This document shows positions 10,112 through 47,698 of a stretch of 64,000 nt of DNA, piece after piece. This DNA comes from Rhizobium brockwellii (GTDB lineage: Bacteria > Pseudomonadota > Alphaproteobacteria > Rhizobiales > Rhizobiaceae): positions 62,001 to 126,000 of the forward strand of contig NZ_CP053441.1 in the NCBI RefSeq assembly GCF_000769405.2, given 5' to 3'. Each line of letters opens with the position of its first letter. Position 1 is the stretch's first letter. The position numbers and the translations under genes are program-made. A model generated the notes under the pieces. That model saw nothing but the letters and a program-made list of their open reading frames with translations, did no database searches and had not been told where the DNA came from.

Positions 10112-10121
10112 ACATTGCCGA

Positions 10122-12246: not shown

Positions 12247-12266
12247 GGAAATATAAGAGACTCGCC

Positions 12267-13009: not shown

Positions 13010-13684
13010 ATGCTCAAGCAAATCCACGACCCGGCTGAAACAGTAAGCGATGTCGTCTTCCGGCAGATCCGCGAGGATATCATATCCGGGACATTGCCGC
13101 CGGGAGCCAAGATCAAGCTGGAACAGGCAAAGGAGCGTTACTCCATCGGCATTTCATCGCTGCGCGAAATTCTGAGCCGCCTGACCACGGAAAACCTCGT
13201 TGTCGCCGAAGGGCAGCGTGGTTTTGAAGTCAGCCCCGCTTCGCGCCGCGAACTCCTCGAACTCGCCGACCTCAGGATCGTTCTTGAAACACATGCGATC
13301 GGCCTTGCCTTCGCTGCGGGAAATCTTGAATGGGAGGGGCGTATCGTCGCCGCCCACCACCGGCTGGCTGCCGCCGAACGCAAGCTCCTTGCGGGCGACG
13401 TCTCGCGGACAGTCGACTGGGTCCGATACGACTGGGAGTTCCATCAGGCCATTGTCTCGGCCTGCAATTCAGCGACGCTGATGGCGACATTGTCATCGGT
13501 CTTCGACCGCTTTCTCCGCTACCATATGCTGGCCGAAAGTTTTCGCGGAAAGCCTGTTGTCGATGACCACAGGCTTCTGTTTGAACTTTCCATTCAGCGC
13601 GACGTCGCCGGCGCGACCGACGTCGTCAGACGGCACGTTCAAAGCGGCGTGGAGCATGTGCTCAAGAGCGGGCGGATTGCCTAA
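13010..13684 (+). CDS. GntR-family regulator, FCD subfamily (second of a tandem pair)
   Basis: A 224-residue paralogue of the preceding gene, sharing LVVAEGQ-GFEVSP, RYDWEFHQA and the FCD metal/ligand pattern, so a tandem duplication. ATG 13010 follows an aggaaaa ribosome-binding site. It converges on the quiC-type gene, with only 8 bp between stop codons. Two similar repressors may respond to different pathway intermediates; that is inference. Confidence 0.88.
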   Translation: MLKQIHDPAETVSDVVFRQIREDIISGTLPPGAKIKLEQAKERYSIGISSLREILSRLTTENLVVAEGQRGFEVSPASRRELLELADLRIVLETHAIGLAFAAGNLEWEGRIVAAHHRLAAAERKLLAGDVSRTVDWVRYDWEFHQAIVSACNSATLMATLSSVFDRFLRYHMLAESFRGKPVVDDHRLLFELSIQRDVAGATDVVRRHVQSGVEHVLKSGRIA

Positions 13685-13692
13685 ACCATAGC

Positions 13693-15588
13693 TCAATAGG
13701 CGTCTTTCGGAATTCCTTCCGGACGCATCTGTTTCTTCAGAGCGGCGATCCGGAAAATAGCGTTCGGCGCGCCATAGCCGCGGTAGCCGCGGCGCTCGAC
13801 GATCTCGAAAAAGAAACCCTCTCCATAGGTTCCGCTATAGAGCTGGAAATATTCGCCATGCTCGTCGCGGTCATAGAGGATGTTTTCCGCCTTCAGCCGC
13901 TCGGTCAATGCAGGATCGAGGCCGAAGCGGGCTTCGACGTCGTCGTAGTAGTTCGGCGAGATGTGCAGCGATCTGAAACCGCAAACACGAAGGCTTTCCG
14001 CGGTCACAAAGATATCGTCCGTCAAGAACGCCAGGTGCTGTATGCCGGCCCCGAATTTTTCGGCGATGAAATGTCCCGCCAGAGTGCGGCGATTCTCGGC
14101 ACCGTTCATGGTGATGCGCAGCGCCCCGGTGTCGTTCTCGACGACTTGGCTGCGCACCACCCCGGCCGGATCGATGATATCGACCATCGGGGTCTTCCGC
14201 GTCTCGAAAATCGACGTGTAGAACAAAAGCCAGGTGAGCATTTCATCGTAACCGACCGTCTGGGCGACGTGATCAATGCGCAAAAGCCCCGCGGACGGCG
14301 CGTCGGTATCGTCCGTGACCGGTTGAAAGTCGATTTCGGAGAAGCGACCCAATGCGCTCTTGTCGTCGATGAGATAGACGATCCCACCCCCTACGCCCCG
14401 AATGGCAGGCAGCTCGAGTTCACCGTCTGCGACAGGCTGGGTGAATGGCTCGGCATCCAAGGCGAGCGCGCGCTCATAGGCCTTTGCGGCATCGTCGACG
14501 ACCAGGGCCATGGCATAGGCAAAAGTGCCGTGAACGGCATAAGCCGCGTTGGCGAATCCTGCCTGATCGACATTGACGAGGATCCGGATCTCGCCCTGCT
14601 CGAAAAGAGAGACTTTCTTCGTGCGGTGGATTGCCGTCTTTTTGAAACCGAGGGTGCGCAGCAATGCAACCAGCTCGACTTCGTCTTCCTCGTCCGTGGC
14701 GAACTCGACGAAACCGACGCCCTTGACGGAGGGCCTTTCCGGCATCGCCGCTCCGGTCATGCTGCCGATGCCGAGATGGCGTCGGACCTGATCGCCAAGA
14801 TAGATCAGCGAGCGGTGGCCATCGGCGGCAATCGCCCGTGACAAACCGCCTCGAAACTGGTCGTTGAAGATCTCCAGGGAGAAATACCCGTCATAACCTG
14901 TCGCCGCGACGGCTTCGGTAAACGCCGTGACGGGAAGATCGCCTTCCCCCGGCATGTTTCGGAAGTGGCGGCTCCAATAGAGCAGGTCCATGTCGATCAA
15001 CGGGGCATCGGCAAGCTGGACGATGAAGATCTTCTCCTTGGGAATCGAACGGATGGAATTGACGTCGATCTTGCGCGACAAGGTGTGGAAGCTGTCGAGG
15101 ATAAGACCGACATTCGGATGATCGGCGCGACGGACGATCTCCCAGGCGTCGCGGTGGTCGCTGATATGGCGGCCCCAGGCAAGCGCCTCGTAGCCAACCC
15201 TCAGTCCACGCCGGGCGGCACGCTCGCCGAGTTCATGAAAGTCCGCCGCCGCCCGGTCGATGCCGCCGATGGCTGCCGGCGAGACGTTCGAGCAGACGAG
15301 CACCAGCTCCGTTCCGAGCTGCTGCATGACGTCGAACTTCCGTTCCGCGCGGTCAAACGTGCGGCTTCGCAGCGGCTCCGGCATGCCTTCGAAATCACGG
15401 AACGGCTGAAACAGGGTGATCTCCAGGCCATGATCGCGGACGAGTTTTCCGACATCGGCCGGGCTTCCGTCGAAGGCGAGGAAATCATTTTCGAAGATCT
15501 CGACGCCGTCGAAGCCCGCTCGGGCGATCGCCTCGAGCTTTTCCGGAAGTTCGCCGCTGATCGTGACAGTCGCAATCGAGGTCCTCAT
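13693..15588 (-). CDS. quiC: 3-dehydroshikimate dehydratase fused to an HPPD-like domain
   Basis: A 631-residue two-domain protein. Residues 1-270 are a xylose-isomerase/AP-endonuclease-2-type TIM barrel (ILDSFHTLSR and YFSLEIFND carry metal ligands). Residues 285-615 are two VOC repeats like 4-hydroxyphenylpyruvate dioxygenase (RIDHVAQTV, GIQHLAFLT, QLYSGTYGEGFFFEIVERR). Known fusions of this kind (QuiC1 type) dehydrate 3-dehydroshikimate to protocatechuate. I chose ATG 15588 (MRTSIATV) after ggaaggg; a 16-residue longer start is less likely. It is divergent from the ABC operon and supplies substrate to the pca genes. Confidence 0.87.
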   Translation of the reverse strand: MRTSIATVTISGELPEKLEAIARAGFDGVEIFENDFLAFDGSPADVGKLVRDHGLEITLFQPFRDFEGMPEPLRSRTFDRAERKFDVMQQLGTELVLVCSNVSPAAIGGIDRAAADFHELGERAARRGLRVGYEALAWGRHISDHRDAWEIVRRADHPNVGLILDSFHTLSRKIDVNSIRSIPKEKIFIVQLADAPLIDMDLLYWSRHFRNMPGEGDLPVTAFTEAVAATGYDGYFSLEIFNDQFRGGLSRAIAADGHRSLIYLGDQVRRHLGIGSMTGAAMPERPSVKGVGFVEFATDEEDEVELVALLRTLGFKKTAIHRTKKVSLFEQGEIRILVNVDQAGFANAAYAVHGTFAYAMALVVDDAAKAYERALALDAEPFTQPVADGELELPAIRGVGGGIVYLIDDKSALGRFSEIDFQPVTDDTDAPSAGLLRIDHVAQTVGYDEMLTWLLFYTSIFETRKTPMVDIIDPAGVVRSQVVENDTGALRITMNGAENRRTLAGHFIAEKFGAGIQHLAFLTDDIFVTAESLRVCGFRSLHISPNYYDDVEARFGLDPALTERLKAENILYDRDEHGEYFQLYSGTYGEGFFFEIVERRGYRGYGAPNAIFRIAALKKQMRPEGIPKDAY

Positions 15589-15836
15589 GTCAAAGCCCTT
15601 CCGATATCGGTGCGAGATAAACCGAGCGTCAAACACGACGATGCGTCCCAGAAACCGCTCGCTACTATTATGGCAAATGTCGTGAGGAATTCAAATAGCG
15701 TGTCTTATTATAAATTCTCATATGATTTTGAAAAACTCTGTTGATTTGAGTGCTCGTCTCTGGCAATCATTCCTCTCACAGTCAAAAGGTGAGGTGGCTG
15801 TCCGGTCCATGGACCGTTCCAAGGAGGAGAAATTAC
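15589..15836. promoter_or_regulatory. Divergent promoter region, quiC / transporter operon
   Basis: A 248-bp AT-richer gap from which quiC reads left and the binding-protein operon reads right. It must contain both promoters and the binding sites of the GntR pair or another regulator. No copy of the palindrome at 12231 is present, and no other site is clear to me. Confidence 0.45.
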
Positions 15837-16667
15837 ATGTTCAAGTCTATGCTAACGCGTCGAAACGCGATGCTCGGAGCCGCCGCCCTCGTGGCAGCCG
15901 TCACCCTGGCGCAGCCGGCCGCCGCCGTCACGCCCGATGAGATCAAGGCTCGCGGCAAGATCATCGTCGGAATTCAGGGTGACAACCCGCCCTGGGGCTT
16001 CGTGACCAGCGGCGGCAAGCAGGACGGCCTCGACGCCGACATCGCAACGCTGTTTGCCAAGGAACTCGGCGTTTCCGTCGAGTTCGTGCCGCTTGAAGTC
16101 AACAACCGCATTCCCGCTCTGACGGCCGGCCGCGTCGACGTTCTGTTCGCGACGATGGCGATGCTGCCGGATCGCGCAAAGGCCGTGCAGTTCAGCAAGC
16201 CCTATGTCGCCAATGCCATCGTCCTGATCGGTCCGAAAAAGGCTGAGATCAAAACGAATGCCGACATGGCCAAGTTCACGGTCGGCGTCGCCAAGGGAGC
16301 TGCTCAGGACACGCAGGTCACCAAGAACGCGCCGCCGAGCACCACGATCCGGCGCTATGACGGAGACGCGGCAAGCGTCCAGGCGCTGGTGTCCGGCCAG
16401 GTCGAGACGCTTGGCGGCAACATCTTCTACATGGATCGGCTGGAGAAGGCCCGTCCGGGCGAATTCGAAAACAAGCTTGAATTCCAGAAGCTCTACAACG
16501 GTGCTTGCACGCGTCTCGGCGAAAAGGAAATCAATGCGGCGCTGAACACCTTCATCGACAAGATCAAGGCCAACGGCGAACTCAAGGCCGTCTACGACAA
16601 GTGGATGAAGGTTCCGGTCCCGGAATTCCCGGAAACGCTGGAAGGCATTCCGTTCGCGGCGAACTGA
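15837..16667 (+). CDS. ABC transporter substrate-binding protein (family 3), probable quinate/shikimate binder
   Basis: A 276-residue periplasmic protein with a twin-Arg-free signal peptide (residues 1-30, ending QPAAA) and the family 3 fold (GDNPPWGF, DADIATLFAKELG). The start ATG 15837 follows an excellent aaggaggag site. Arg113, the usual ligand-carboxylate residue, is kept, but by my alignment the Asp that binds an amino acid's alpha-amine is replaced by Asn195 (LGGNIFY). The histidine-locus homologue at 42913 keeps Asp there. This favours a non-amino-acid carboxylate, and the operon suggests quinate or shikimate. Confidence 0.85.
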   Translation: MFKSMLTRRNAMLGAAALVAAVTLAQPAAAVTPDEIKARGKIIVGIQGDNPPWGFVTSGGKQDGLDADIATLFAKELGVSVEFVPLEVNNRIPALTAGRVDVLFATMAMLPDRAKAVQFSKPYVANAIVLIGPKKAEIKTNADMAKFTVGVAKGAAQDTQVTKNAPPSTTIRRYDGDAASVQALVSGQVETLGGNIFYMDRLEKARPGEFENKLEFQKLYNGACTRLGEKEINAALNTFIDKIKANGELKAVYDKWMKVPVPEFPETLEGIPFAAN

Positions 16668-16687
16668 GCCAACGGTAAAGGATGGCT

Positions 16688-16826
16688 GCCCCTCACCCTA
16701 ACCCTCTCCCCGTAAAAACGGGGAGAGGGGACGTGCCCTGCGAGGGGTGCGCGAGGGACGGAGAGGTCGCAGCTTGTCCCTTCTCCCCGCCTGCGGGGAG
16801 AAGGTGGCGGCAGCCGGATGAGGGGC
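16688..16826. repeat. RIME-like mosaic of two large hairpins
   Basis: Hairpin one is ccctctccccgt/acggggagaggg at about 16702-16729. Hairpin two pairs 16779-16790 with 16793-16804 (ccttctccccgc). They are followed by gtggcggcagccggatgagg. The same words occur inverted at 23481-23528. This matches the style of Rhizobium-specific intergenic mosaic elements. It sits inside the transporter operon, between the binding-protein and aroQ genes, and may attenuate read-through. Confidence 0.75.
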
Positions 16827-16951
16827 AGGCGGCGATCGCCTTGGGGCGGGGATTTTGACGTCCAGACGAAGCCCTTCCCAATGAAGGCGGGCAGCCATGC
16901 CCGTCAACGCAACCGCCATGCCTATGGCCAGGCCCGTTTGAGGTGCGCGAC

Positions 16952-17395
16952 ATGACCAGAACCATTTTTGTGCTCAACGGGCCGAATCTCAATCTTCTCG
17001 GTCAGCGCGAGCCGGCAATCTACGGGACCACGACGCTTGCCGACATCAAGAAACGATGCGTTGCCAAGGCAAAGTCTTTGGGGTTCGACGTCGAGTTTCG
17101 GCAGACCAATTTCGAGGGCGAACTGGTCGAGAGCGTGCACCAGGCCCGGACCGATGCTTGTGGCATCATCATCAATCCCGCCGGTTATACCTTCACATCG
17201 ATCGCTCTTCTCGATGCCTTGAAAATGTTCGACCCGCCGAAGATCGAACTGCATATCTCCAATGTCCATGCGCGCGAGAGCATCTACCATAATTCGCTGA
17301 TCTCGCGCGTTGCCACGGCGATCATGATCGGCTTTGGAGCCGATGGCTACGAACTGGCTATCCAGGCGATGGCAGGAATGGTCAAGAGGGACTGA
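16952..17395 (+). CDS. aroQ: Type II 3-dehydroquinate dehydratase
   Basis: A 147-residue enzyme with all type II hallmarks: FVLNGPNLNLLGQRE, the catalytic Tyr in IYG, NFEGELVE, IINPAGYTFTS and the HISNVHARE segment. It interconverts 3-dehydroquinate and 3-dehydroshikimate. The position between transporter genes argues for a catabolic copy serving quinate breakdown rather than aromatic amino acid synthesis. ATG 16952 is preferred; a GTG three codons upstream is possible. Confidence 0.93.
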   Translation: MTRTIFVLNGPNLNLLGQREPAIYGTTTLADIKKRCVAKAKSLGFDVEFRQTNFEGELVESVHQARTDACGIIINPAGYTFTSIALLDALKMFDPPKIELHISNVHARESIYHNSLISRVATAIMIGFGADGYELAIQAMAGMVKRD

Positions 17396-34295: not shown

Positions 34296-35969
34296 TCAGT
34301 TCCCGAGAATGCCGGGCAGGCGCAGGCCCTTTTCCTTGGCGCAGTCGATGGCGATCTCGTAGCCGGCATCGGCGTGGCGCATGACGCCGGTCGCCGGATC
34401 GTTCCAGAGCACGCGCTCGAGGCGTCTTGCGGCATCGTCCGTGCCATCGGCGCAAATGACCATGCCGGAGTGCTGCGAGAAGCCCATGCCGACACCGCCG
34501 CCGTGATGCAGCGACACCCAGGTGGCGCCCGACGCCGTGTTGAGCAGGGCGTTGAGCAGCGGCCAGTCGGAAACGGCGTCGGAACCGTCCTTCATCGCTT
34601 CGGTCTCGCGGTTCGGCGAGGCGACGGAGCCGGAGTCCAGATGGTCGCGGCCGATGACGATCGGGGCGGAGAGTTCGCCTGTTCTCACCATCTCGTTGAA
34701 GGCGAGGCCAAGCTTGTGGCGGTCGCCCAAGCCCACCCAGCAGATGCGGGCCGGCAGACCCTGGAAGGCGATGCGCTCCCTGGCCATGTCGAGCCAGTTG
34801 TGCAGGTGCTTGTTGTCAGGCAGCAGCTCCTTCACCTTGGCATCGGTCTTGTAGATATCCTCCGGATCGCCGGAAAGGGCCGCCCAGCGGAAGGGGCCGA
34901 TGCCGCGGCAAAACAGCGGGCGGATATAGGCCGGTACGAAGCCTGGGAAGGCGAAGGCGTTTTCGAGGCCTTCGTCCTTGGCGACCTGGCGGATATTGTT
35001 GCCATAATCGAGTGTCGGCACGTCGGCATTCCAGAAGGCGATCATCGCTTCGACATGCTCGCGCATCGAGGCGCGGGCCGCTTTTTCCACGGCCTTCGGA
35101 TCGCTTTCGCGCTTCGCCTTCCATTCGCCCATCGTCCAGCCCTTCGGCAGATAGCCGTTGATCGGGTCGTGCGCCGAGGTCTGGTCGGTGACGATATCGG
35201 GGCGGATGCCGCGGCGGACCATCTCCGGCAGGATTTCGGCAGCATTGCCGAGCAGGCCGACGGACTTCGCCTCGCCGGCCTTGGTCCAGCGGTCGATCAT
35301 CTCAAGCGCTTCATCGAGCGTCTCGGCCTTGGCGTCGACATAGCGGGTGCGCAGGCGGAAATCGATCGAGTCGGGATTGCATTCGACGGCCAGGCAGCAG
35401 GCGCCGGCCATGACGGCGGCGAGCGGCTGGGCGCCGCCCATGCCGCCGAGGCCGCCGGTCAGGATCCATTTGCCCTTGAGATTGCCGCCGTAATGCTGGC
35501 GGCCGGCCTCGACGAAGGTCTCATAGGTGCCCTGCACGATGCCCTGCGTGCCGATATAGATCCACGAGCCGGCCGTCATCTGGCCGTACATGGCAAGGCC
35601 CTTCTTATCCAACTCGTTGAAATGATCCCAGGTCGCCCAATGCGGCACGAGGTTGGAATTGGCGATCAGCACCCGCGGCGCATCCTTGTGGGTGCGGAAC
35701 ACGCCGACCGGCTTGCCGGACTGTACCACCAGGGTTTCTTCTTCCGTCAGCGTCTTCAGCGTCGCGACGATGCGGTCGAAATCCTCCCAGGTGCGGGCGG
35801 CGCGGCCGATGCCGCCATAAACGACGAGCTCGTTCGGATTTTCGGCGACGTCGGGATCGAGATTGTTCATCAGCATGCGCAGCGGCGCTTCGGTCATCCA
35901 GCTCTTGGCATTGAGATCGTTGCCGCGGGGCGCGCGGATTTCGCGGATATTGTGGCGTGGATTGTTCAT
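34296..35969 (-). CDS. hutU: Urocanate hydratase
   Basis: A 557-residue enzyme of normal length with urocanase landmarks: [26 protein letters not shown] and the NAD-binding and active-site stretch [19 protein letters not shown] near the C-terminus. It converts urocanate to imidazolone propionate using tightly bound NAD+. It lies between hutG and hutD in the hut operon. A 710-codon open frame on the opposite strand is only its antisense shadow. Confidence 0.97.
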
Positions 35970-35993: not shown

Positions 35994-36812
35994 TTATCGT
36001 TTCAGGCCTGGCGCAATCTGTTCGATGCGCACCAGAATGTTCTTGAGATGGACGCGAAGTCTGTCTGCCTTGGCGCCATCGCAGGCAAAGGGCGCCGCCT
36101 CGGTTTGGAGATGCGTCGATTGCGCGAGCTCCATCTGGATCGCGTGCACACCGGTATCGGGCCGACCATAGTGGCGTGTCGTCCAGCCGCCCTTGAAGCG
36201 ACCGTTCAGCACACTGTCGTAACCTTCGGCGGCTTCGACGACGGTGAGCGTCGCCTGCTCGATCGCGCTGTCGCACGTCTTGCCCATGTCGGTGCCGATA
36301 TTGAAATCCGGCAACTTGCCTTCGAAGAGGAAGGGAATGTGGGAGCGGATCGAGTGGCAGTCGTAGAGAATTGCGACGCCATGGATTGCTCTCACGCGCT
36401 CGATCTCGGCGGCAAGTGCGGCATGATAGGGCGCATGGAAGTCCCGCAGCCGCGCCGCGACGTCGGCTTCGTCAGGCGCCTGCCCATCCTTCCAGATCGC
36501 CTTGCCGTCGAAATCCGTTTCAGGAACAAGGCCGGTGGTATTCTGGCCGGGATAGAGGCTGACGCCCGCCGGATCGCGGTTGGCGTCGATCACATAGCGG
36601 TGGAAGGTGGCACGCACCACCGTGACATCGTCGAGCAGGCCGTCATAGAGCTCATGGATGTGCCAGTCGGTGTCGGCCAGCATCCTGCCGTTGCCGTTGA
36701 GGCGGTCGGCAATCTCAGCCGGCACGTCGGTCCCGGTATGGGGGAAACCGAGGATGACGGGCGAGGTGCCTTGGCGAATTTCGCATGGAGAGGAGACTTT
36801 TTCCGTCGCCAT
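35994..36812 (-). CDS. hutG: N-formylglutamate deformylase
   Basis: A 272-residue member of the FGase family (GFPHTGTDVPAEIADRLN, DTDWHIHELYDG, ATFHRYVIDANRDPAG, ILYDCHSIRS). It splits N-formylglutamate into formate and glutamate, the last step of the five-step hut route that begins with HutF. Its ATG lies four bases after the hutH stop, so the genes are tightly coupled. Confidence 0.95.
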   Translation of the reverse strand: MATEKVSSPCEIRQGTSPVILGFPHTGTDVPAEIADRLNGNGRMLADTDWHIHELYDGLLDDVTVVRATFHRYVIDANRDPAGVSLYPGQNTTGLVPETDFDGKAIWKDGQAPDEADVAARLRDFHAPYHAALAAEIERVRAIHGVAILYDCHSIRSHIPFLFEGKLPDFNIGTDMGKTCDSAIEQATLTVVEAAEGYDSVLNGRFKGGWTTRHYGRPDTGVHAIQMELAQSTHLQTEAAPFACDGAKADRLRVHLKNILVRIEQIAPGLKR

Positions 36813-36816: not shown

Positions 36817-38352
36817 TCAACCCTCCAATACCGGCAATATGCCAGATGAAACCGAGGCGTTCAGCGCGCCCGTCGCCACCAGTTCGGCGGCGGCGGCGAG
36901 GTCGTTTGCCATGTAGCGATCGACGTCGAGGCTCGGAACCTTGGTGCGGATCGCGGTGATCGCCTTGCCAAGTTCCGGGCTTGTCGATAGCGGCGCGCGC
37001 AGTTCAACGCCTTGGGCGGCGGTCAGCGCCTCGATGCCGATGATGCCGAACAGGTTCTCGGTCATGGCGAGCAGGCGGCGGGCGCCATGGCAGGCCATCG
37101 AGACATGGTCTTCCTGGTTGGCCGACGTCGGCGTCGAATCGACCGAGGCCGGGTGCGACATCTGCTTGTTCTCGGACATCAGCGCCGCAGACGTCACCTC
37201 GGCGATCATCAGGCCGGAGTTCAAGCCCGGCTTCTTGGCGAGGAAGGCCGGTAGGCCGTAGGAAAGGGTTGGATCGACCAGCAGCGCGATGCGGCGCTGC
37301 GAAATCGCGCCGATCTCGCAGACGGCAAGCGCGATCTGGTCGGCGGCGAAGGCGACGGGTTCGGCGTGGAAATTGCCGCCGGAGACGACGGAATTGTCCG
37401 ACAGCACCAGCGGATTGTCGGTGACCGCATTGGCTTCGATCTCAAGGGTGCGGGCAACCGAGCGCAGCAGATCGAGGCAGGCGCCGTCGACCTGCGGCTG
37501 GCAGCGGATGCAATAGGGATCCTGGACGCGCTCGTCGCCCTCGATGTGGCTCTGGCGGATGATGGAGTTTTCGAGGAGCGCGCGAAGCGCGGCTGCCGTG
37601 TCGATCTGGCCCTTATGGCCACGCAATGTGTGAATGTCCGGATGGAAGGGCGCCGAAGAACCCATGGCGGCATCGGTGGACATGGCGCCGGTGATGAGAG
37701 CTGCCTGTGCGGCACGATGGGCGCGGAAGAGGCCGGCAAGCGCCAGCGCCGTCGAGGTCTGGGTGCCGTTGATCAGCGCCAGGCCCTCCTTGGCGGCGAG
37801 CACGACCGGTTTGAGGCCGGCCCTTTCGAGGGCTTGCGCGCCCGGGAGCCGTTCGCCGGCGAAGAAGGCTTCAGCCTCGCCCATCATCACCGCCGCCATA
37901 TGGGCAAGGGGCGCAAGATCGCCGGAGGCGCCGACCGAGCCTTTTTCCGGGATCAGCGGAATGACGCCCTTTTCCAGCATGCCTTCGATCAGCCGGACCA
38001 GCTCCAGCCGCACGCCGGAGGCGCCGCGCCCGAGCGAGACCAGCTTCAGCGCCATGATCAGCCGCACGATATTCTCAGGCAGTGGCGCGCCGACGCCGCA
38101 GCAATGCGACAGGATGAGATTGCGCTGCAAGGTGGTCACGTCGGCGCTGTCGATCTTGATCGAGGCGAGTTTGCCGAAGCCGGTATTGATGCCGTAGACC
38201 GGCGCATTGCCGGCGGCGATCTCGGCGATGCGGGCAGCGGCCTTGGCGATCCCGGCATCGAAGGCGGGATCGAGCCTTGCCGGCACACCGGTCCAGTAGA
38301 TGGTTTCCAGGTCCTTGAGCGAGACGGAGCCCGGGTGGAGTGTGATGGTCAT
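36817..38352 (-). CDS. hutH: Histidine ammonia-lyase
   Basis: A 511-residue enzyme with the intact MIO-forming triad Ala142-Ser143-Gly144 in [15 protein letters not shown], catalytic Tyr53 in VYGINTGFG, and the later [14 protein letters not shown] motif. It deaminates histidine to urocanate. Its start overlaps the hutI stop by four bases (ATGA). It serves as the in-window reference for the MIO-less paralogue at 46211. Confidence 0.97.
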
Positions 38353-39611
38353 CGACCGTTCCTTTCGCCCTTGAAGACGCGTGCGTGAAGCGGATTGAAG
38401 CCGATGCGGTAGACGAGCTCGGCGAGGCTTTCGATATTCCAGATGGCGAGATCGGCGGATTTGCCGGCTTCGAGCGTTCCTGTCTTGTCGAGCAGACCGA
38501 GGGCGCGGGCGCCTTCACGGGTGGCGCCGGCGATGCATTCCTCGACGGTGAGGCCGAAGAGCGTCGCCGACATGTTCATGGTGAGCAGCATCGAGGTGAG
38601 CGGCGAGGTGCCGGGATTGCAATCGGTGGCGATCGCAATCGGCACGCCTGCCCGCCGCAACGCCTCTACCGGCGGCTTCTGCTTTTCATGGATGGCGTAG
38701 AAGGCGCCGGGCAGCAGCACGGCGACGGTGCCGGCTGCGGCCATCGCCGCAACGCCATCTTCGTCGAGATATTCGAGGTGATCGGCTGACAGTGCGCCAT
38801 AGGACGCGGCGAGCTTGGCGCCGCCAAGATTGGAGAGCTGCTCGGCATGCAGCTTTACCGGCAGGCCAAGCGCCTTCGCCTTGTCGAAGACGCGGGCGAT
38901 CTCGGCCGTGGAAAAAGCAATGCCCTCGCAGAAGCCATCGACAGCATCGGCAAGACCGAGGCCATGCATGTCGTCGAGACCGGGCAGGACGACATCATCG
39001 AGATAATCGCCGTTGCGATTCTTGTAGTCCACAGGCGTCGCATGGGCGCCGAGATAGCTGGTGGCGACGCGGACCGGGCGGATATGGCCGAGCAGGCGGG
39101 CGCTCTGCAGCATCTTCACTTCGCCGCTCCGGTTCAGTCCGTAGCCGGACTTGACCTCGATCGTCGTGACACCTTCGGCAAGCAGCGTGTCGAGCCGCGG
39201 CAGAGCCTGCGCGACAAGCTCCTCGACCGACAGCGCATTGGTCGCTTTCACCGAGGAGACGATGCCGCCTCCGGCACGCGCGACCTCCTCATAGGTGGCG
39301 CCTGCAAGGCGCATTTCGAACTCACGGGCTCGGTTGCCGCCATGGACGATATGGGTGTGGCAGTCGACGAGGCCGGGCGTCACCCAGCGGCCTTCGAGAT
39401 CGACGATTTCGGAGTGTTCGATGGCCGATGCTGGGAGCTCGCTTTCGGCGCCGGCAAAGGCGATGCGGCCGTTTTCGACAAGCAAAACGCCCTTTTCGAC
39501 GATGCCGAGACCCTCTTTATCAGGCGCAAGCGTGGCGAGCCGCGCATTGCGCCACAGCACTGGGCGGGTGTCGGCAGATGGGGCTTTCTCTGAAAAATTG
39601 TTCCCGGTCAT
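38349..39611 (-). CDS. hutI: Imidazolonepropionase
   Basis: A 420-residue amidohydrolase with the metal motif [20 protein letters not shown] (near residue 70), [19 protein letters not shown] and [11 protein letters not shown]. It opens imidazolone propionate to formiminoglutamate. ATG 39611 (MTGNNFSEK) follows ggaaagg; a longer frame starting at 39668 would run through the operator and is rejected. First gene of the hutIHGUD operon, divergent from hutF. Confidence 0.95.
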
Positions 39612-39640: not shown

Positions 39641-39652
39641 ATGTATATACAT
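39641..39652. promoter_or_regulatory. HutC-type operator between hutI and hutF
   Basis: atgtatatacat is a perfect 12-bp palindrome in the 122-bp gap between the divergent hutI and hutF starts. HutC sites in Pseudomonas centre on TGTATATACA, which is contained here exactly. It would let one repressor dimer control both directions. Urocanate is the known inducer of HutC. Confidence 0.75.
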
Positions 39653-39733: not shown

Positions 39734-41080
39734 ATGACCACACTTCACGCAGGCACGGCGCTGACGCCGCAGGGCTGGCAGAAGGACGTGCGGCTGACGC
39801 TTAAGGCCGGGCGCATCGCGCGGGTCGAAATCGGCACTGCTCCCGAGCCCGGCGACGAACGCCACGCTCTCCTTGTTCCTGCCATGGGGAACCTGCACAG
39901 CCATGCCTTCCAGCGGGCGATGGCCGGCCTTGCCGAAGTGCGCGGCCCAGCCAATGACAGCTTCTGGAGCTGGCGCACTGTCATGTACAAATTTGCCCTG
40001 GCGATGACGCCTGATCATGTCGAGGCGGTGGCGGCCAAGCTTTATGCGGAAATGCTGGAGGCCGGGTTTTCCCGCGTCGGCGAGTTCCACTATCTCCACC
40101 ACGACAGGGATGGCGGCACTTACGCCAATATCGCCGAGCTTGCCGAACGCATCGGCGCGGCAAGCGAAGAGACCGGTATTGGCCTGACGCTGCTGCCGGT
40201 CTTCTATGCCCATTCCGGCTTCGGCGGAGCTGCCCCGATCGACGGCCAGCGGCGTTTCATCAATTCGCTCGAAAGCTTCGAAATGCTGATGGAAGGATGC
40301 CGGACGATGACCGGCCGGCTCGATGGCGCCGAGCTCGGGCTGGCGCCGCACAGCCTGCGCGCTGCGACGCCGGACGAGCTTACAAGGCTCGTGCCGATGG
40401 CGGGCGACGGTCCCATCCATATCCATGTCGCCGAGCAGGTGAAGGAGGTCGAGGACTGCATCGCCTGGTCCGGCGCGCGGCCTGTGGAATGGCTGCTCGA
40501 TCATGCGCCTGTCGATGAGCGCTGGTGCCTGATCCATGCGACGCACATGACCGAGGACGAAACGCGGCGGATGGCGAAAAGCGGCGCGATTGCCGGCCTC
40601 TGCCCGATCACCGAAGCCAATCTCGGCGACGGCGCCTTTGCCGCGCCGCTCTTCCTCGAAGAGGGCGGGCGTTATGGCATCGGCTCGGATTCCAACGTGC
40701 TGATTTCCGTGCCGGAGGAACTGCGCCAGCTCGAATATTCGCAGCGTCTGGCGCTTCGCGCCCGCAACGTCGTCGCGGCACCCGGCGGTTCGACTGCGCT
40801 TTCACTGTTCACACATGCACTTGCCGGCGGCGGTGCCGCGCTGAAGGCGCCGGCCGGCCTCGTTGAGGGCCATTCCGCCGATATCGTCTCACTCGACACC
40901 AAAGCCGTTCCTTATCTCACAGGCGACCAGATCCTCGATCACTGGCTGTTTGCAGGCGGCATTTCCATCGATTGCGTTTGGGCACGCGGCCGCAAGCAGG
41001 TGGAGGGCGGCCGCCATCTCAGGCGTGATGCCATCGACGGGCGATTCCTCGCTGCGATGGGCGAATTGCTGGCTGCCTGA
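39734..41080 (+). CDS. hutF: Formimidoylglutamate deiminase
   Basis: A 448-residue amidohydrolase with GNLHSHAFQRAMAGL (metal His pair, about residues 55-69), HIHVAEQVKEVEDC, LIHATHMTEDE and GIGSDSNV. It deiminates formiminoglutamate to formylglutamate, which HutG hydrolyses; having both proves the five-step route. ATG 39734 follows agaggagaggga. Transcribed alone or with the GntR gene at 41202 downstream. Confidence 0.94.
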   Translation: MTTLHAGTALTPQGWQKDVRLTLKAGRIARVEIGTAPEPGDERHALLVPAMGNLHSHAFQRAMAGLAEVRGPANDSFWSWRTVMYKFALAMTPDHVEAVAAKLYAEMLEAGFSRVGEFHYLHHDRDGGTYANIAELAERIGAASEETGIGLTLLPVFYAHSGFGGAAPIDGQRRFINSLESFEMLMEGCRTMTGRLDGAELGLAPHSLRAATPDELTRLVPMAGDGPIHIHVAEQVKEVEDCIAWSGARPVEWLLDHAPVDERWCLIHATHMTEDETRRMAKSGAIAGLCPITEANLGDGAFAAPLFLEEGGRYGIGSDSNVLISVPEELRQLEYSQRLALRARNVVAAPGGSTALSLFTHALAGGGAALKAPAGLVEGHSADIVSLDTKAVPYLTGDQILDHWLFAGGISIDCVWARGRKQVEGGRHLRRDAIDGRFLAAMGELLAA

Positions 41081-41177: not shown

Positions 41178-41201
41178 CGGGAGACCAATCGGAACGTGGC
41201 G

Positions 41202-41924
41202 ATGAACCAAAGCAGGGATCCCACCTTGCATCAGCGCATCCTCAGCGACATCGAGGGCCGTATCGTCTCGGGCGATTGGCCGCCGGGGCACCGTATTCCC
41301 TTCGAGGTCGATCTCGCCACGCAATATGACTGCTCGCGCATGACGATGAACAAGGTGCTGACCCAGCTCGCCAAGGCCGGCCTTATCGAGCGCCGCAAGA
41401 AGTCCGGCAGCTTCGTCACCCAGCCGCAGGCGCAATCGGCGGTTCTCGAAATCCACGATATCAAGGCCGAGGTGCAGTCGCTGAACCTGCCCTATTCCTA
41501 TGCGGTATCGAAGAAGACGAGCCGCAAGGCCAAGGCGGAAGACAGTCGAAGGCTGGAACTGCCTGTGGCATCCTCGGTCGTCGAGGTCGTCTGCATCCAC
41601 AATGCCGGTGCGCGGCCCTTCTGCCTGGAGGAGCGGCTGATCAGTCTTGCGACGGTGCCAGAGGCCGCCAATGCCGATTTCCTGACGATGGCGCCGGGGC
41701 CGTGGCTGCTCAACCAGGTGCCTTGGAGCACGGCCGAACACCGGATCCACGCCGTCTCGGCCAGTGCCGAAGTCGCCGCCGTCCTCGACATAGCGCGCAA
41801 TACCGCCTGCCTCGTGGTCGAACGCCGGACCTGGAGCGGCGCCGGCCCGGTGACGCATGTGCGCTTCACCTATCCGGGCGATCGCCACGCGCTGGTGGCG
41901 CGTTTCACGCCGGCATCACAATAA
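41202..41924 (+). CDS. GntR/UTRA regulator, HutC-like paralogue
   Basis: A 240-residue protein with N-terminal winged helix (HQRILSDIEGRIVSGDWPPG, CSRMTMNKVLTQLAKAGLIE) and a C-terminal UTRA ligand domain. It is HutC-like but less close to Pseudomonas HutC than the gene at 41961. ATG 41202 is chosen; GTG 41196 is an alternative. Position downstream of hutF suggests a role in hut control, perhaps with another effector. Confidence 0.88.
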   Translation: MNQSRDPTLHQRILSDIEGRIVSGDWPPGHRIPFEVDLATQYDCSRMTMNKVLTQLAKAGLIERRKKSGSFVTQPQAQSAVLEIHDIKAEVQSLNLPYSYAVSKKTSRKAKAEDSRRLELPVASSVVEVVCIHNAGARPFCLEERLISLATVPEAANADFLTMAPGPWLLNQVPWSTAEHRIHAVSASAEVAAVLDIARNTACLVVERRTWSGAGPVTHVRFTYPGDRHALVARFTPASQ

Positions 41925-41960: not shown

Positions 41961-42716
41961 TCATTCCTCGAACATCTTGCCGCTGCGCGCTTCCAGCCGG
42001 TAGCGGTGGCCGGGATAGACGAGGCGGGCGGTCGAGACCACCTGCTTTGCCGACCATGTGCGCCGGCGGATCGTCAGGCACGGTTCGGTCTTCATGATGG
42101 TCAAGAGCTTGCATTCCCAGGCCTGCGGCATCGCCGCCTCGACAACGTGCTCGGAGCCGCTGAGCGGGGCCGCAGCCGTCAGATAAGCGTTCGGCGTCAG
42201 CGTCGCGAAATCCTGAGCGAGATATTCGGGGGCGGCTTCCGGATGGACGAAACGGTCCTCGATCTGCACCGGAACGCCGTTTTCGCTGTGGACGATCAGC
42301 GAATGGAAAACCGCAGCACCGATCGGCAGTTCAAGCGCGTCGGCGACCTCGGGAGACGCGGTTTCCTGGGCGAGAACGACGACGGAGGCCTCGTGCACAT
42401 GCCCGCGTTCGGCGATTTCCTCGGCAATGTTGCGGACCTCGAACAGCGCCGAATAGCCCTTGCGCTCGGCAACGAAGGAGCCGACGCCCTGGATGCGGAC
42501 AAGTTCGCCCTCATTGGCAAGTTCGCGCAGCGCCCGGTTGGCGGTCATCTTGCTGACGCCAAGTTCGACGACCAGTTCGTTTTCCGACGGCACGCGATAT
42601 TTCGGCGGCCACTCGCCGCTCTGGATGCGGTCGAGGATCACTTGCTTGACGCCGGCATAGAGCGGGGTGCTATCATTCTCCGCCAGTTCGCGCTTCATCT
42701 CGCCGGGACGCTTCAT
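41961..42716 (-). CDS. hutC: Histidine-utilisation repressor HutC (GntR/UTRA)
   Basis: A 251-residue regulator with close HutC resemblance by memory: PLYAGVKQVILDRIQSGEWPP, SKMTANRALRELANEGELVR, GVGSFVAE, SALFEVRNIAEEIAERGH, FHSLIVHSENGVPVQIEDRF, LLTIMKTEPCLTIRRRTWS. It should bind the palindromes at 39641 and 42789 and release them on urocanate. It is divergent from the ABC operon starting at 42913, which it likely controls too. Confidence 0.9.
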   Translation of the reverse strand: MKRPGEMKRELAENDSTPLYAGVKQVILDRIQSGEWPPKYRVPSENELVVELGVSKMTANRALRELANEGELVRIQGVGSFVAERKGYSALFEVRNIAEEIAERGHVHEASVVVLAQETASPEVADALELPIGAAVFHSLIVHSENGVPVQIEDRFVHPEAAPEYLAQDFATLTPNAYLTAAAPLSGSEHVVEAAMPQAWECKLLTIMKTEPCLTIRRRTWSAKQVVSTARLVYPGHRYRLEARSGKMFEE

Positions 42717-42788: not shown

Positions 42789-42808
42789 ATATGGTACCAT
42801 ATACAACC
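42789..42808. promoter_or_regulatory. Palindromic operator between hutC and the ABC operon
   Basis: atatggtaccatat (42789-42802) is a perfect 14-bp palindrome continuing into acaacc. The core atatacaac is shared with the dyad at 41932, and ATATACA with the hutI/hutF site. It lies 73 bp upstream of hutC and 111 bp upstream of the binding-protein gene. Confidence 0.55.
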
Positions 42809-42912: not shown

Positions 42913-43752
42913 ATGAAATTCAGCGCAATCCTGCTTTGTGGCGTGGCGGCTTTTTCCGCCTTCGCCGCGCCTGCCTTTTCCAAAGACTGGACGAAGGCGA
43001 CCATTACACTCGAAGGCGCCTATGCGCCCTGGAACCTCACCAATGCCGACGGCACGCTCGGCGGCTTCGAACCGGAACTCGCCAAGGTGCTGTGCGAGCG
43101 CGCCAAGATCGAATGCACGCTGGTCGCCTCCGATTGGGACGGCATGATCCCGGCGCTCAACGCCGGCAAGTTCGACGTCATCATGGATGCGCTGTCGATC
43201 ACCGAGGAGCGCAAGCAGGTCATCGACTTTACCATTCCCTATGCCGCCACGCCTGCCGCCTTTGCCACCGCCAAAGATAGCCCGCTGGCAAAGGCCGCCG
43301 GCACCGGCGCCACGATCAAGATGACACCCGGCCAGACCGGCGTGAAGGAAATCGACGCGCTGAAGGCCGCCTTCAAGGGCAAGACGATCGGCATCCAGGC
43401 CGCCACCGTCTACGCCAAGTTCGTCTATGACAATTTCGGCGATATTGCCGAGATCCGCGAATATAAGACCGGTGCCGACCGCGACCTCGACTTGCAGAAC
43501 GGCCGCATCGACCTCGGCTTCGACGACGCCGTCTATTTCGCCAATGCCTTCGCGTCCGCCAACGGCGCGCTCGACTTCACCGGCCCCGAGATCATCGGTC
43601 CGATCTGGGGCGAGGGCGAAGGTCTGGGTGTCCGCAAGGCCGATACGGACCTGCGTGACAAGTTCAGCGAGGCGATCAAGTCCGCGCTTGCCGACGGCAC
43701 CGTCAAGAACCTCTCGATGAAGTGGTTCAAGGTCGACGTCAGCCCGCAATAA
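42913..43752 (+). CDS. ABC transporter substrate-binding protein, histidine-type
   Basis: A 279-residue family 3 periplasmic protein with signal peptide (residues 1-23, cleavage near AFS-KD). It keeps the amino acid ligand set: Arg100 for the carboxylate (ITEERKQVIDF) and an Asp pair (D204/D205) after GRIDLGF for the alpha-amine. It resembles HisJ/LAO proteins. With hutC divergent and an ammonia-lyase-like gene at the operon's end, histidine, urocanate or a histidine derivative is the likely ligand. Confidence 0.88.
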   Translation: MKFSAILLCGVAAFSAFAAPAFSKDWTKATITLEGAYAPWNLTNADGTLGGFEPELAKVLCERAKIECTLVASDWDGMIPALNAGKFDVIMDALSITEERKQVIDFTIPYAATPAAFATAKDSPLAKAAGTGATIKMTPGQTGVKEIDALKAAFKGKTIGIQAATVYAKFVYDNFGDIAEIREYKTGADRDLDLQNGRIDLGFDDAVYFANAFASANGALDFTGPEIIGPIWGEGEGLGVRKADTDLRDKFSEAIKSALADGTVKNLSMKWFKVDVSPQ

Positions 43753-43780: not shown

Positions 43781-43926
43781 GGTCTCCGGCTTCATCGCCG
43801 GAGACCGCATGCTCGAACAGGATGATTTTAGGCCGGGTCGGCCTAAAATCTGAATCCTGTTCTCAATTAAAGAGTTAGAGCATGATGTCGTCCGAAAACC
43901 GCTTACACTTTTCGGCATCATGCTCT
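43781..43926. repeat. Three consecutive hairpins including complete family B repeat
   Basis: Hairpin 1 pairs 43781-43790 with 43797-43806 (ggtctccggc). Hairpin 2 has outer arms 43816-43823/43854-43861 and inner arms 43824-43834/43840-43850. The third, family B, pairs 43877-43887 (agagcatgatg) with 43916-43926, inner ccgaaaa/ttttcgg. They separate the binding-protein gene from its permeases and may stabilise the abundant binding-protein transcript. Confidence 0.8.
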
Positions 43927-43970
43927 GGTGTCAATCCGCAAAACACTGCCACGGACGGGGAACGGACGAT

Positions 43971-44696
43971 ATGGCAAGCTTGGAACTTCTCGGCTTCGGC
44001 TCGACGGGATGGGGCGCGCTGCTTATTGCCGCCGCCTTGATGACGCTGGCTGTCACGGCGACGGCGCTGGCGATCGGCGCGGTGCTGGGCGCGATCGTCG
44101 CGGCCGCGAAACTCTCCGGCAATTTTGTCCTTGTCACGCTCGGTAACGTCTACACGACCGTGTTTCGCGGCGTGCCCGAACTGCTGATCATCTATCTCAT
44201 CTATTTCGGCGGCTCGTCGGCCGTCACCTCGATCGGCCAGGCGATGGGTTACGAGGGTTTCCTCGGCTTGCCCTCCTTTGTCGCCGGCGCGCTTGCCGTC
44301 GGCATCATCTCCGGCGCCTACCAGGCGGAGGTCTTCCGCGGCTCTTTTCTCGCCATCTCCAAGGGCGAGCTCGAGGCCGCCTCGGCGATCGGCATGCATC
44401 GCGGCATGCGCCTTCGCCGCATCATCATGCCGCAGGTGTTTCGCCTCGCCATTCCCGGCCTCGGTAACGTCTGGCAGCTCAGTCTCAAGGATTCGGCGCT
44501 GATCTCCGTCACCGGTCTTGCCGAGCTGATGCGCACCAGCCAGGTGGCGGCGGGCTCGACCCGGCAATATTTTCTGTTCTTCATCGCCGGCGGCTGCCTC
44601 TATCTGCTCCTGACCAGCCTTTCGGACCGCATCTTCAACGGGGCGGAGCGCCGCGCCAATCGCAGCATGCCGGCATCCGCCATGGGCCAGGCGTAA
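43971..44696 (+). CDS. PAAT-type ABC permease (HisQ-like)
   Basis: A 241-residue membrane protein with about five helices, VFRGVPELLIIYLIYFG and the EAA loop KGELEAASAIGMHRGMRLRRI. The long TVFRGVPEL signature and GGSSAVT insertion are HisQ/ArtQ-like. ATG 43971 is chosen; the in-frame ATG at 43920 lies inside the repeat. It pairs with the next permease, 9 bp downstream. Confidence 0.9.
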   Translation: MASLELLGFGSTGWGALLIAAALMTLAVTATALAIGAVLGAIVAAAKLSGNFVLVTLGNVYTTVFRGVPELLIIYLIYFGGSSAVTSIGQAMGYEGFLGLPSFVAGALAVGIISGAYQAEVFRGSFLAISKGELEAASAIGMHRGMRLRRIIMPQVFRLAIPGLGNVWQLSLKDSALISVTGLAELMRTSQVAAGSTRQYFLFFIAGGCLYLLLTSLSDRIFNGAERRANRSMPASAMGQA

Positions 44697-44705: not shown

Positions 44706-45410
44706 ATGGATTTCACCTTCATCGCCTCGACCTTGGTCACCCTGCTCAAGGCCGTACCGACGACGCTCATCCTGTTTTCCCTGTCGATCGTCTCTGGCGG
44801 CCTGCTGGCGCTCGTCATCGTCTGGATGCGGACCAGCGGCAACAAGGTACTTTCGGGCTTCGCCAAGGGTTACATCTTCATCTTCCGCGGCTCGCCGCTG
44901 CTGATCCAGATGTTCCTGGTATTCTACGGCCTCGGCCAGTTCGGCTTCATCCGCTATTCCTTCCTCTGGCCGTTCCTGCGTGAGCCGATGGTCTGCGCGG
45001 TGCTGTCACTGGCGCTCTGCACCGCCGGCTACACGGCGGAGATCTTTCGTGGCGGCATTCGTGCCGTCTCGCCGAAGGAGATCGAAGCGGCACGCTCGAT
45101 CGGCATGTCCGGCTTCCTGCTGGTGCGCCGTATCCTGGCGCCGATCGCCTTCCGCCACGCGCTGCCGGCCTATTCCACCGAGATCGTGCTGATGATGAAG
45201 TCGACGGCGCTCGCAAGCCTCGTCACCGTCTGGGAAGTCACCGGCGTCGCCCAGCGGCTGATCTCGCAGACCTACCGCACAATGGAAGTCTTTCTCTGTG
45301 CGGCGATCATCTACCTCGTACTCAACTTCATCATCCTGCAGGGCATGGCTCTGCTCGAATATTCGCTCTCCCGACACCGCCGCGCAGCCCCGCACGCGCT
45401 GAAGGCGTAA
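44706..45410 (+). CDS. PAAT-type ABC permease (HisM-like)
   Basis: A 234-residue permease with FIFRGSPLLIQMFLVFYGLGQF and EAA loop PKEIEAARSIGMSGFLLVRRI, as in HisM/ArtM. A short gggcgact spacer separates it from the upstream permease. Forms the second half of the channel powered by the ATPase at 45438. Confidence 0.9.
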   Translation: MDFTFIASTLVTLLKAVPTTLILFSLSIVSGGLLALVIVWMRTSGNKVLSGFAKGYIFIFRGSPLLIQMFLVFYGLGQFGFIRYSFLWPFLREPMVCAVLSLALCTAGYTAEIFRGGIRAVSPKEIEAARSIGMSGFLLVRRILAPIAFRHALPAYSTEIVLMMKSTALASLVTVWEVTGVAQRLISQTYRTMEVFLCAAIIYLVLNFIILQGMALLEYSLSRHRRAAPHALKA

Positions 45411-45437: not shown

Positions 45438-46214
45438 ATGCCAGGCGTAACCCGACTATCGGTCCGCAATATCCGCAAGAGCTTCGGTACGCACGAGGTG
45501 CTGCGCGGCATTTCCCTCGATGCGGAAGACGGCGACGTGATTTCGCTGCTCGGCGCCTCCGGCTCCGGCAAATCGACCTTTCTGCGCTGCATCAACATGC
45601 TCGAAACCGCCAGCGACGGTGAGATCTGGGTCGACGGCGAGGAGATCCGCATGGTGCACAAGAACGGGCGGAGCAAGCCGGCCAGCCAGAAGCAGGTGGA
45701 CCATATCCGCTCCGAGCTTGGCATGGTGTTCCAGTCCTTCAATCTCTGGTCCCATATGACGATCCTGCAGAACGTCATCGAAGGGCCGATCCACGTGCTG
45801 AAGCGACCGCGCGCCGACTGCATCGCCGAGGCCGAAGCGCTGCTCGAAAAGGTCGGCATCGCCGATAAGCGCCACGCCTATCCCGCCCATCTCTCCGGTG
45901 GCCAGCAGCAGCGCGCCGCAATCGCCCGGGCGCTGGCGATGAAGCCGAAGGTGATGCTGTTCGACGAACCGACCTCGGCGCTTGATCCGGAACTTGTCGG
46001 CGAGGTGCTGCGCGTCATGCGCGCGCTGGCCGAGGAAGGCATGACCATGCTCGTCGTCACCCATGAGATGAGCTTTGCCCGCAACGTCTCGAACCGCGTC
46101 GTCTTCATGCGCGAAGGGTTGATCGAGAGCAGTGGCAAGCCCGACGAGATGTTTACCGGCGGCGCGACACCCGCGTTTCGCCAGTTCATCGGCCATTTCG
46201 GAAGCGGTCAATGA
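45438..46214 (+). CDS. PAAT-type ABC ATP-binding protein (HisP-like)
   Basis: A 258-residue ATPase with GASGSGKST (about 38-46), [24 protein letters not shown] and [14 protein letters not shown]. The insertion [15 protein letters not shown] after the first third is typical of HisP-type proteins. Its stop overlaps the start of the ammonia-lyase-like gene by four bases, which ties that enzyme to this transporter. Confidence 0.92.
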
Positions 46215-47698
46215 CGATCACCATCGACGCCGTGCTTACCTGGCGCGATGTCGCGCGCGTCGGGGCAGGGGAAGCGCTTGCGCTGTCGCCCGCCGCTTGG
46301 GCGCGCATAGAGCAGGCAAGCCGCATCGTCGCGCGCATCGTCGAGACCGGCGTGCGCGCTTATGGCGTCAATACCGGCGTCGGGGCACTGGCGGATACGG
46401 TGGTCGATCGTGCCTCGCAGAGCCTGTTGTCGCGCAGTATCGTGCTCAGCCATGCCTGCGGCGTCGGGCCATTGCTGGCTGCCCGCGAGGTGCGTGCCAT
46501 CATCGCCGCTGAGATCGCCAATTTCGCTCATGGCCATTCCGGCGTGCGGCGCGAGCTCGTCGAGCATCTCACAGCCCTGCTGGAACATGATTGCATTCCC
46601 GACGTGCCGTCCAAGGGCTCTGCCGGTTACCTCGTCCACAACGCCCATATTGCGCTTGTTCTGATCGGCGAAGGCAGCGCTCACCTGGACGGCCGGCGCA
46701 TGAGCGGTCGCGAAGCGCTTGCCGCGATCGGCCTCGAGCCCTTAGTGCTTGGCGCCAAGGAGGGCTTGAGCCTTGTCAACGGCACCGCCTGCGCCACCGG
46801 CCTGACCACTGTCGCGCTTTCGCGCGCCGAACGGCTGCTCGACTGGGCCGATGCGATCGCAGCATTGACGCTGGAAGCGGCGGGCTGCCAGATCGCCGCC
46901 TTCGACGCGGCCGTGCTGGCGCTGCGCCCATCGGCGGGAATAGAGAAAGTGGGAGCGACGCTGCGCGCGCGGCTTCAGGGCAGCGGCCTTGTCGCCGCCG
47001 CCTTCGGCCGCCGCACGCAGGATGCGCTCAGCCTTCGTTCGGTGCCGCATGCGCATGGCGCTGCCCGCGATATCTTCGACAATTCCGCCCGCGTCGCCGA
47101 TCAGGAGCTTGCTTCGGTGACGGACAATCCGGCTGTTTCAGGCACGCCGGAACAGCCGATCGTCTCCTCCGAGGCGCATGCGGTTGCCCCGGCGCTGGGT
47201 CAGGCGGCCGATAGCCTGGCCATTGCGCTGGCGCAGATCGGCGCGATCAGCGAGCGGCGCATGGACCGGCTCGTCAATCCGCTGGTGAGCGGTCTGCCGG
47301 CTTTCCTCGCCAGCGATGCCGGCAGCCATTCCGGCTTAATGATCGCCCAATATACTGCCGCGGCCCTTAGCAACGAGAACCGCCGCCTTGCCGCACCCGC
47401 GGCCATGGACGGCGGGCTGACCTCGGGCCTACAGGAGGATTTCCTCGCACACCCGACGGCTGCCGCCGGCAAGCTGCTCGCCGTCATCGACAACGCCGAG
47501 TATATCCTGGCGATCGAGCTGATGGCGGCGGCACAGGCGCATGATTTTCTGGCAGCGACGGCGTCGCGGGCGGCAGGCACGGACCTGGTTTACAAGGCTG
47601 TGCGGGAGCATGTTTCGCATTATGGTGACGAACGGCCGCTCAACGGCGATATCGAAGCCGTGTGCAGCCTGATCCGCGAGACTGCGCCGCCGGTATAA
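46211..47698 (+). CDS. Ammonia-lyase-family protein lacking the MIO triad
   Basis: A 495-residue homologue of histidine/phenylalanine ammonia-lyases. Tyr51 (YGVNTGVG), [26 protein letters not shown] and GLQEDF are kept in family order. The MIO-forming Ala-Ser-Gly is not: where hutH has [16 protein letters not shown], this protein reads [16 protein letters not shown] (residues 135-150), about three residues shorter. It cannot form the classical cofactor. It may use another elimination chemistry, or have lost activity. Translationally coupled to the ABC ATPase (ATGA overlap). Confidence 0.88.

Follow-up and report, generated by a model that had tools for sequence, protein, structure and literature searches.

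A HutH-fold lyase without the MIO site, encoded with its own importer and HutC repressor in Rhizobium, is a probable hercynine trimethylamine-lyase

Why would a hut locus that has a canonical histidine ammonia-lyase (HAL) carry a second hutH-like gene from which the residues that form the MIO cofactor are missing? We studied this question in a window of 64,000 nucleotides (the whole stretch of DNA analysed, positions 62,001 to 126,000 of NZ_CP053441.1) from Rhizobium brockwellii, which is part of a Rhizobium leguminosarum complex plasmid in a genome of 7.1 Mb and 7 contigs. Among named records it matches Rhizobium leguminosarum plasmids best, at 98.4% for NZ_CP050099.1, and the same operon is found on pRL11 of R. 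johnstonii 3841 (96% match), where the lyase is annotated hutH. From sequence comparison we propose, with a probability of roughly 0.7, that this lyase is a MIO-independent hercynine trimethylamine-lyase that yields urocanate and is equipped here with its own importer and HutC. The operon runs from the binding protein through two permeases and the ATPase to the lyase, which comes last, with a HutC gene divergent from it and with hutD-U-G-H-I, hutF and a second HutC gene as neighbours (Table 1).

Table 1. Features of the importer-lyase operon and the neighbouring hut genes, in positions of the window.
Feature	Position	Strand	Basis
Probable hercynine trimethylamine-lyase, an aromatic-amino-acid-lyase homologue of the GY clade without MIO	46211..47698	+	profiles, alignment, tree, model
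Clade signature G139-Y140-L141-V142-H143, replacing HutH G-A-S-G-D-L-A-P (MIO site excised)	46625..46639	+	alignment, in-frame translation
ABC importer ATPase; best match HisP, 337 bits, under the cut-off of 466	45438..46214	+	NCBIfam
ABC permease, ArtM/HisM-like	44706..45410	+	NCBIfam
ABC permease, HisQ-like; RefSeq orthologue has a later start (726 bp)	43920..44696	+	NCBIfam, RefSeq orthologue
Periplasmic solute-binding protein, SBP_bac_3	42913..43752	+	Pfam
Palindrome ATATGGTACCATAT, candidate operator in the gap that separates the neighbouring hutC from the importer operon	42789..42802	.	sequence
HutC2, a repressor of the HutC type, transcribed divergently from the importer-lyase operon	41961..42716	-	TIGR02018, 297.9 bits, cut-off 220
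Second HutC-type repressor HutC1, downstream of hutF	41196..41924	+	TIGR02018, 297.2 bits
hutF, formimidoylglutamate deiminase; start from RefSeq orthologue	39734..41080	+	profile match
TGTATATACA, fits HutC operator consensus TGTA-N2-TACA, between hutI and hutF	39642..39651	.	consensus from PMC12977541
hutI, imidazolonepropionase; start from RefSeq orthologue	38349..39611	-	profile match
Canonical hutH, Ala-Ser-Gly intact	36817..38352	-	profile match, alignment
hutG, N-formylglutamate deformylase	35994..36812	-	profile match
hutU, urocanate hydratase, 975 bits; thiourocanate hydratase model 686, cut-off 930	34296..35969	-	profile match

The lyase gene encodes 495 residues, starts with ATG and is free of internal stops. 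As the sequence-only reading had noticed, it overlaps the stop of the ABC ATPase gene, by the 4 bp ATGA at 46211-46214. The PF00221 match spans residues 9-466 (Pfam, 468.9 bits), placing the protein in the aromatic-amino-acid-lyase fold, and its AF2 model (pLDDT 93.2) gave Foldseek TM scores of 0.93 against HAL 1gkj and 0.91 against ergothionase 6s7j. All family motifs quoted earlier, including Tyr51, were found in the translation. The region of the MIO site reads in frame and, aligned to PpHAL, lacks positions 143-145 and has Tyr for A142, so the claim of a lost Ala-Ser-Gly without a frameshift is correct. This confirms that the window protein is a full-length HutH-fold protein from which the MIO-forming Ala-Ser-Gly has been excised. 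A sequencing error or a lone mutant is ruled out: of 570 related genome loci found, the best 80 were compared, and 67 have the same form while 13 are Ser-Gly-type HALs. Here Y51, H81, Tyr140, His143, N190, R276, M377 and E409 are numbered as in the window protein, and Y53, H83, A142 and the other positions as in PpHAL.

Members of this clade carry the motif G-Y-[LI]-x-H at the MIO site (GY type). In 41 of 41 dereplicated GY rows of the alignment Ala-Ser-Gly is excised, Y53, H83, N195, Q277, R283, M382 and E414 are retained, A142Y, P148H and Y280L are found, and Y386 is present; F329 is replaced by Ala in 36 rows, Pro in 4 and Cys in 1. The same retained and substituted residues are invariant in the 241 database rows listed (the window protein with the best 120 of 7680 and the best 120 of 7629 matches of protein searches; another protein search listed the best 120 of 637). 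The sequence-only reading had named absent conservation of catalytic residues as grounds against itself, and both sets show these residues conserved throughout. HAL rows have Ala-Ser-Gly (17 rows) or Ser-Ser-Gly (1 row; n = 18), and the seven ergothionase-type rows have one residue deleted, with Asp145 in 7/7, M382 in 0/7, Lys386 in 6/7 and N195 in 2/7. The two distinct patterns of deletion and residues indicate that there are two MIO-less types in the superfamily. In HutH, H83, M382 and E414 presumably face the imidazole and R283 the carboxylate, and we take Lys386 of ergothionase to matter for catalysis.

The GY lyase thus resembles HutH (P. putida 1gkj/1b8f, T. acidophilum 7tqr) in fold, length, imidazole, carboxylate and base residues and position in a hut locus, but differs in having no Ala-Ser-Gly and no MIO, Leu at Y280, Ala, Pro or Cys at F329, Tyr at A142 and His at P148. 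Profile scores separate the two within the window: the hutH equivalog model, with a cut-off of 539.15, gives 724.9 bits for HutH and 453 for the lyase. The GY lyase of L161 scores 536.3, slightly under that cut-off, and passes a looser subfamily model (550.7, cut-off 524). Members of the MIO-less clade are annotated hutH, histidine ammonia-lyase, in RefSeq plasmid records and in NC_008384.1 (227803-229290).

The relationship between the types was further examined in an unrooted tree of 66 rows, dereplicated from 95, in which some branches are long, including several ergothionase-type ones. Each group occupies one side of a branch, with support of 100/99 for the GY clade (41 rows), 100/100 for the ergothionase-type rows (7) and 91/95 for the HALs (18). 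The GY clade stands apart from both HutH and ergothionase, and the window lyase lies outside the ergothionase clade.

Another MIO-less member of the superfamily is ergothionase (Treponema denticola, 6s7j), for which trimethylamine elimination is proposed and which shares Leu at Y280 and the fold with the GY lyase. It could be supposed that the window lyase is itself an ergothionase that eliminates trimethylamine from ergothioneine or its sulfonate; an Agrobacterium ergothioneine-sulfonate enzyme was reportedly described by Yan et al. in 2022. However, the GY lyase has a three-residue deletion instead of one, no Lys386, a retained M382 and a clade and neighbourhood of its own. Furthermore, the window's genome has a separate ergothioneine-utilisation cluster on contig C1 (L088, G000:C1:4812000-4831500, at 9813-17329), with matches to thiourocanate hydratase (1053 bits, cut-off 930), thiohydantoin desulfurase (599, cut-off 440), ErtD (780, cut-off 600) and ErtE (637, cut-off 520), and with a lyase that in the PDB matches ergothionase best (169.7 bits, against 138.4 for HAL).

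For the neighbourhood counts we used 87 loci, the 67 above and 20 added ones (7 non-own matches of the class sample and the 13 least similar of 30 non-own matches of the family sample; 17 GYLxH and 3 GYIxH); these loci were not dereplicated and the stretches are unequal in length, so the counts are not independent. ertB, C, D or E was found in 0 of the 87. The Salinicola locus (L063, at 13981-15519) is the only one that also has an ergothionase-type lyase, 2.5 kb from the GY lyase, with OpuAC-type importer genes (29-32% matches) further along; the two types can accordingly be neighbours, a point in favour of an ergothionase role. In a survey of 200 genomes of the Paraburkholderia family, which stands in for the HME13 Burkholderia ergothionase, thiourocanate hydratase exceeded its cut-off in 7; five of these loci have a lyase nearest to the T. 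denticola ergothionase, two have none within 20 kb, and none has the GY type. Collectively, these results make an ergothionase very unlikely. The sequence-only reading had offered hercynine or ergothioneine as the histidine betaine: ergothioneine is disfavoured by the genome's own ert cluster, the absence of ertB-E from the GY loci and the position in the tree, and hercynine is, by inference, upheld.

That hercynine is the substrate is suggested, among other things, by the importers. Directly upstream of the lyase we found an SBP_bac_3 ABC importer in 46 of the 87 loci, an OpuAC-type ABC importer in 19, a BCCT carrier in 4 and none of these in 18, as typed by tblastn against reference genes that were identified via Pfam and NCBIfam or, in the case of L055, through similarity to glycine-betaine/proline-binding proteins in the PDB. 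Importers of the OpuAC type and BCCT carriers typically serve fully methylated ammonium compounds, and 23 loci have one or the other. A second sample, from the order of Salinicola (8 loci, leaving out the Salinicola locus already counted), has 7 OpuAC-type importers and 1 BCCT. As a control we searched a canonical hutH locus of each of the 10 examined genomes that have one, and found a single OpuAC-type match (29% identity, about 3.7 kb away) and no BCCT, SBP_bac_3 or oxidase match; one of these loci, L168, has amino-acid-type permease and ATPase genes. The coupling of lyase and importer noted in the sequence-only reading is hence seen both in the window, where the lyase ends the importer operon, and in many relatives, in which betaine-type importers take the importer's place.

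Several observations count against hercynine. Among the 87 loci amino-acid-type importers are the commonest, the window's own included, and in 18 no importer was recognised upstream. The published description of HutXWV as a histidine transporter weighs in the same direction, as do the 13 loci without hutU, I, G, F or C and the departure of the window's importer promoter from the canonical HutC operator (see below). The closest solved relatives of the window's binding protein are octopine- and nopaline-binding proteins, with HisJ ranking lower. We sought a betaine signature in the residues of the SBP_bac_3 binding proteins and found that Asp is retained at D205 in 47 of 47, so that these residues do not discriminate. 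In such proteins D205 presumably binds the alpha-ammonium, and with its retention the window's importer may take up histidine as well. Two apparent lyase-ATPase fusions (P0326 and P0340), considered as a lyase-importer link, were set aside because they look like frameshift or assembly artefacts: P0340 has out-of-frame letters between its parts, and P0326 is a lyase with a cut-off ATPase. In the Mesorhizobium loci L021 and L027 one neighbouring reading frame each had no Pfam match. At L131, where no importer was recognised next to the GY lyase, the lyase gene adjoins one for a PhyH-family dioxygenase (8064-8966).

A sarcosine-oxidase-like gene was found in 20 of the 87 loci, immediately downstream of the lyase in 19 (L004-L008, L010-L015, L020, L022-L025, L035, L056 and L062) and further off in L134. 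The copy at L013, taken to represent it, comes closest to monomeric sarcosine oxidase, followed by N-methyltryptophan oxidase, and the gene is a candidate for an N-methylhistidine oxidase. This neighbour, the window's importer being of another type than the betaine carriers, and an active site that keeps the imidazole and carboxylate residues with a remodelled amine side would also fit a lyase that forms urocanate from another N-substituted histidine (dimethylhistidine, N-acylated or N-hydroxylated) or from a molecule resembling histidine that bears some other good leaving group. The OpuAC-type and BCCT importers of the relatives argue against this alternative, which we consider unlikely. Within the proposed elimination, the leaving amine could still bear other substituents, as in dimethyl-histidine, or be another leaving group.

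Next we examined the link to urocanate. A hutC-like gene is present in 72 of the 87 loci, hutU in 29, and any of hutU, I, G, F or C in 74; in the stretches examined at the other 13 loci none of these five was found. Fourteen of the 29 stretches with hutU lack hutH. Among 12 genomes chosen for diversity, six have their only canonical hutU at the lyase locus, away from hutH. Two of these six, Gluconobacter sp. Dm-62 and Salinicola corii, have no canonical HutH, which is present in the other 10 of the 12. The other lyases of these two genomes without canonical HutH are of the ergothionase type, and Salinicola also has a MIO-type one with Lys382 and Gln414; Gluconobacter sp. Dm-62 has an additional urocanase-like match (51%) near its ergothionase-type lyase. 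The association with hutC and hutU, together with the active site conserved across the clade, backs by inference the earlier suggestion of an acid/base lyase that feeds urocanate into hut.

These observations also bear on the view that the lyase is a paralogue without catalytic activity or with a regulatory role, such as a partner of HutH. The lost cofactor would agree with such a role, but the catalytic residues are invariant in every database row listed, the lyase occurs in the two genomes without canonical HutH, and it is carried with importers and a repressor; we regard this as extremely improbable.

HutC responds to urocanate and binds TGTA-N2-TACA (PMC12977541). One such site lies in the window, in the gap between hutI and hutF. 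The canonical operator is absent from the window's importer promoter, where the best match has 3 mismatches; this promoter instead has a perfect palindrome of 14 bp, unlike the canonical HutC operator. The palindrome is exact in 15 of 25 orthologous gaps, several of which are near-copies of one another. Of the 10 gaps without an exact copy 7 were inspected: five carry the palindrome with a single mismatch, while L026 and L035 have three mismatches each, that of L035 lying outside the gap. Of the two features expected in a HutC regulon, the window's operon has the adjacent HutC gene and lacks the canonical operator.

The gene order of the window can be compared with that of Pseudomonas. The hut operon of P. 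fluorescens SBW25 holds HutH1 and HutXWV; hutH1 is reported to be dispensable for growth on histidine, and HutXWV is described as a histidine transporter (PMC8871633). In L161-L163 the order is hutF, hutC, hutD, hutU, a gap (with a 483-aa reading frame in L161), an OpuAC-type binding protein, permease, ATPase, GY lyase, canonical hutH, hutI and hutG, so that a GY lyase sits at the place described for hutH1. Named Pseudomonas rows (P. protegens, P. chlororaphis, P. brassicacearum and others) are of the GY type among the matches listed. Judged by this gene order and these rows, and not by the SBW25 sequence itself, HutH1 probably belongs to the GY family. Unlike this system, the window's importer is of the SBP_bac_3 type and has its own operon beside its own HutC. 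In S. meliloti an OpuAC-type importer lies directly upstream of the GY lyase (L055). We take this locus to be hutXWV-hutH2, and histidine plus betaine uptake by S. meliloti HutXWV / HutH2 was reportedly described in J. Bacteriol. in 2000.

Could the lyase be simply a MIO-free histidine ammonia-lyase, a spare HutH? The adjoining hut genes and HutC, the RefSeq name hutH and the description of HutXWV as a histidine transporter would suggest so. However, ammonia is known to be expelled by means of MIO, a canonical HutH is encoded in the same locus and in most of the genomes examined, and the betaine importers would be left unexplained. The reported growth on histidine without hutH1 fits a different substrate. 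We therefore consider a spare HutH highly unlikely.

The substrate would need to call for betaine-type carriers in many relatives, give urocanate, present an imidazole and a carboxylate, and offer a leaving group that does not require MIO; hercynine, the betaine of histidine (N-alpha,N-alpha,N-alpha-trimethyl-L-histidine), has all four properties. We propose that the operon's ABC importer takes up the betaine and that the lyase may convert hercynine to urocanate and trimethylamine. R276 and N190 would grip the carboxylate and H81, M377 and E409 the unmodified imidazole, as their HutH counterparts are presumed to do, and Y51 would take the beta proton. Trimethylamine would leave readily enough without the MIO electrophile, and excision of MIO, with Leu in place of Y280 and Ala (or Pro) in place of F329, would open an amine pocket for N(CH3)3+ that the invariant Tyr140 and His143 may line. 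The urocanate would then join the hut pathway and release HutC, and the divergent HutC may in this way control transcription.

Ergothioneine synthesis passes through hercynine, which has been reported in fungi and in Actinomycetales (PMC7653990). egtD gave no match in the window's genome, suggesting that hercynine would come from outside. We found no hercynine lyase among the literature matches listed, nothing on-topic for hercynine with urocanate and no match for histidine betaine with Rhizobium; subscription papers lay largely outside this search, so absence in print is unproven.

More broadly, we hold it moderately probable that the widespread "HutH" family of rhizobia, Paraburkholderia, Halomonadaceae and Pseudomonas, probably with HutH1, is a second, separate MIO-less lineage. 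Its members may be hercynine trimethylamine-lyases that act with HutC and a betaine importer, and in some species also with an N-methyl-histidine oxidase, as a methylated-histidine salvage system and a so far unrecognised source of trimethylamine in soil and on plants. If so, this would account for HutH1, an orphan second histidase, and for the HutXWV importer that goes with it, change the annotation of many genes that now bear the name hutH, supply an enzyme for the breakdown of hercynine as opposed to ergothioneine, and name a trimethylamine source in soil and rhizosphere bacteria. It would also offer a natural comparison of two MIO-less answers to the same elimination chemistry within one superfamily.

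The distribution of the lyase is patchy and accessory. Under a strict E-value limit, a sample of 199 genomes from the window's family had it in 31, one of 289 from its class in 8 (own genome counted in both), and it was found in 9 of 293 genomes of the order of Salinicola (Salinicola counted).

Elsewhere in the window's genome, a further lyase paralogue (L083, G000:C1:4154254-4155732) has an intact Ala-Ser-Gly and Gly at the Met382 position. On the window's own contig a type III glutamine synthetase-like gene (G000:C3:406506-407792) scores above its family cut-off; its product, which we assume may be a gamma-glutamylmethylamide synthetase, could serve methylamine use.
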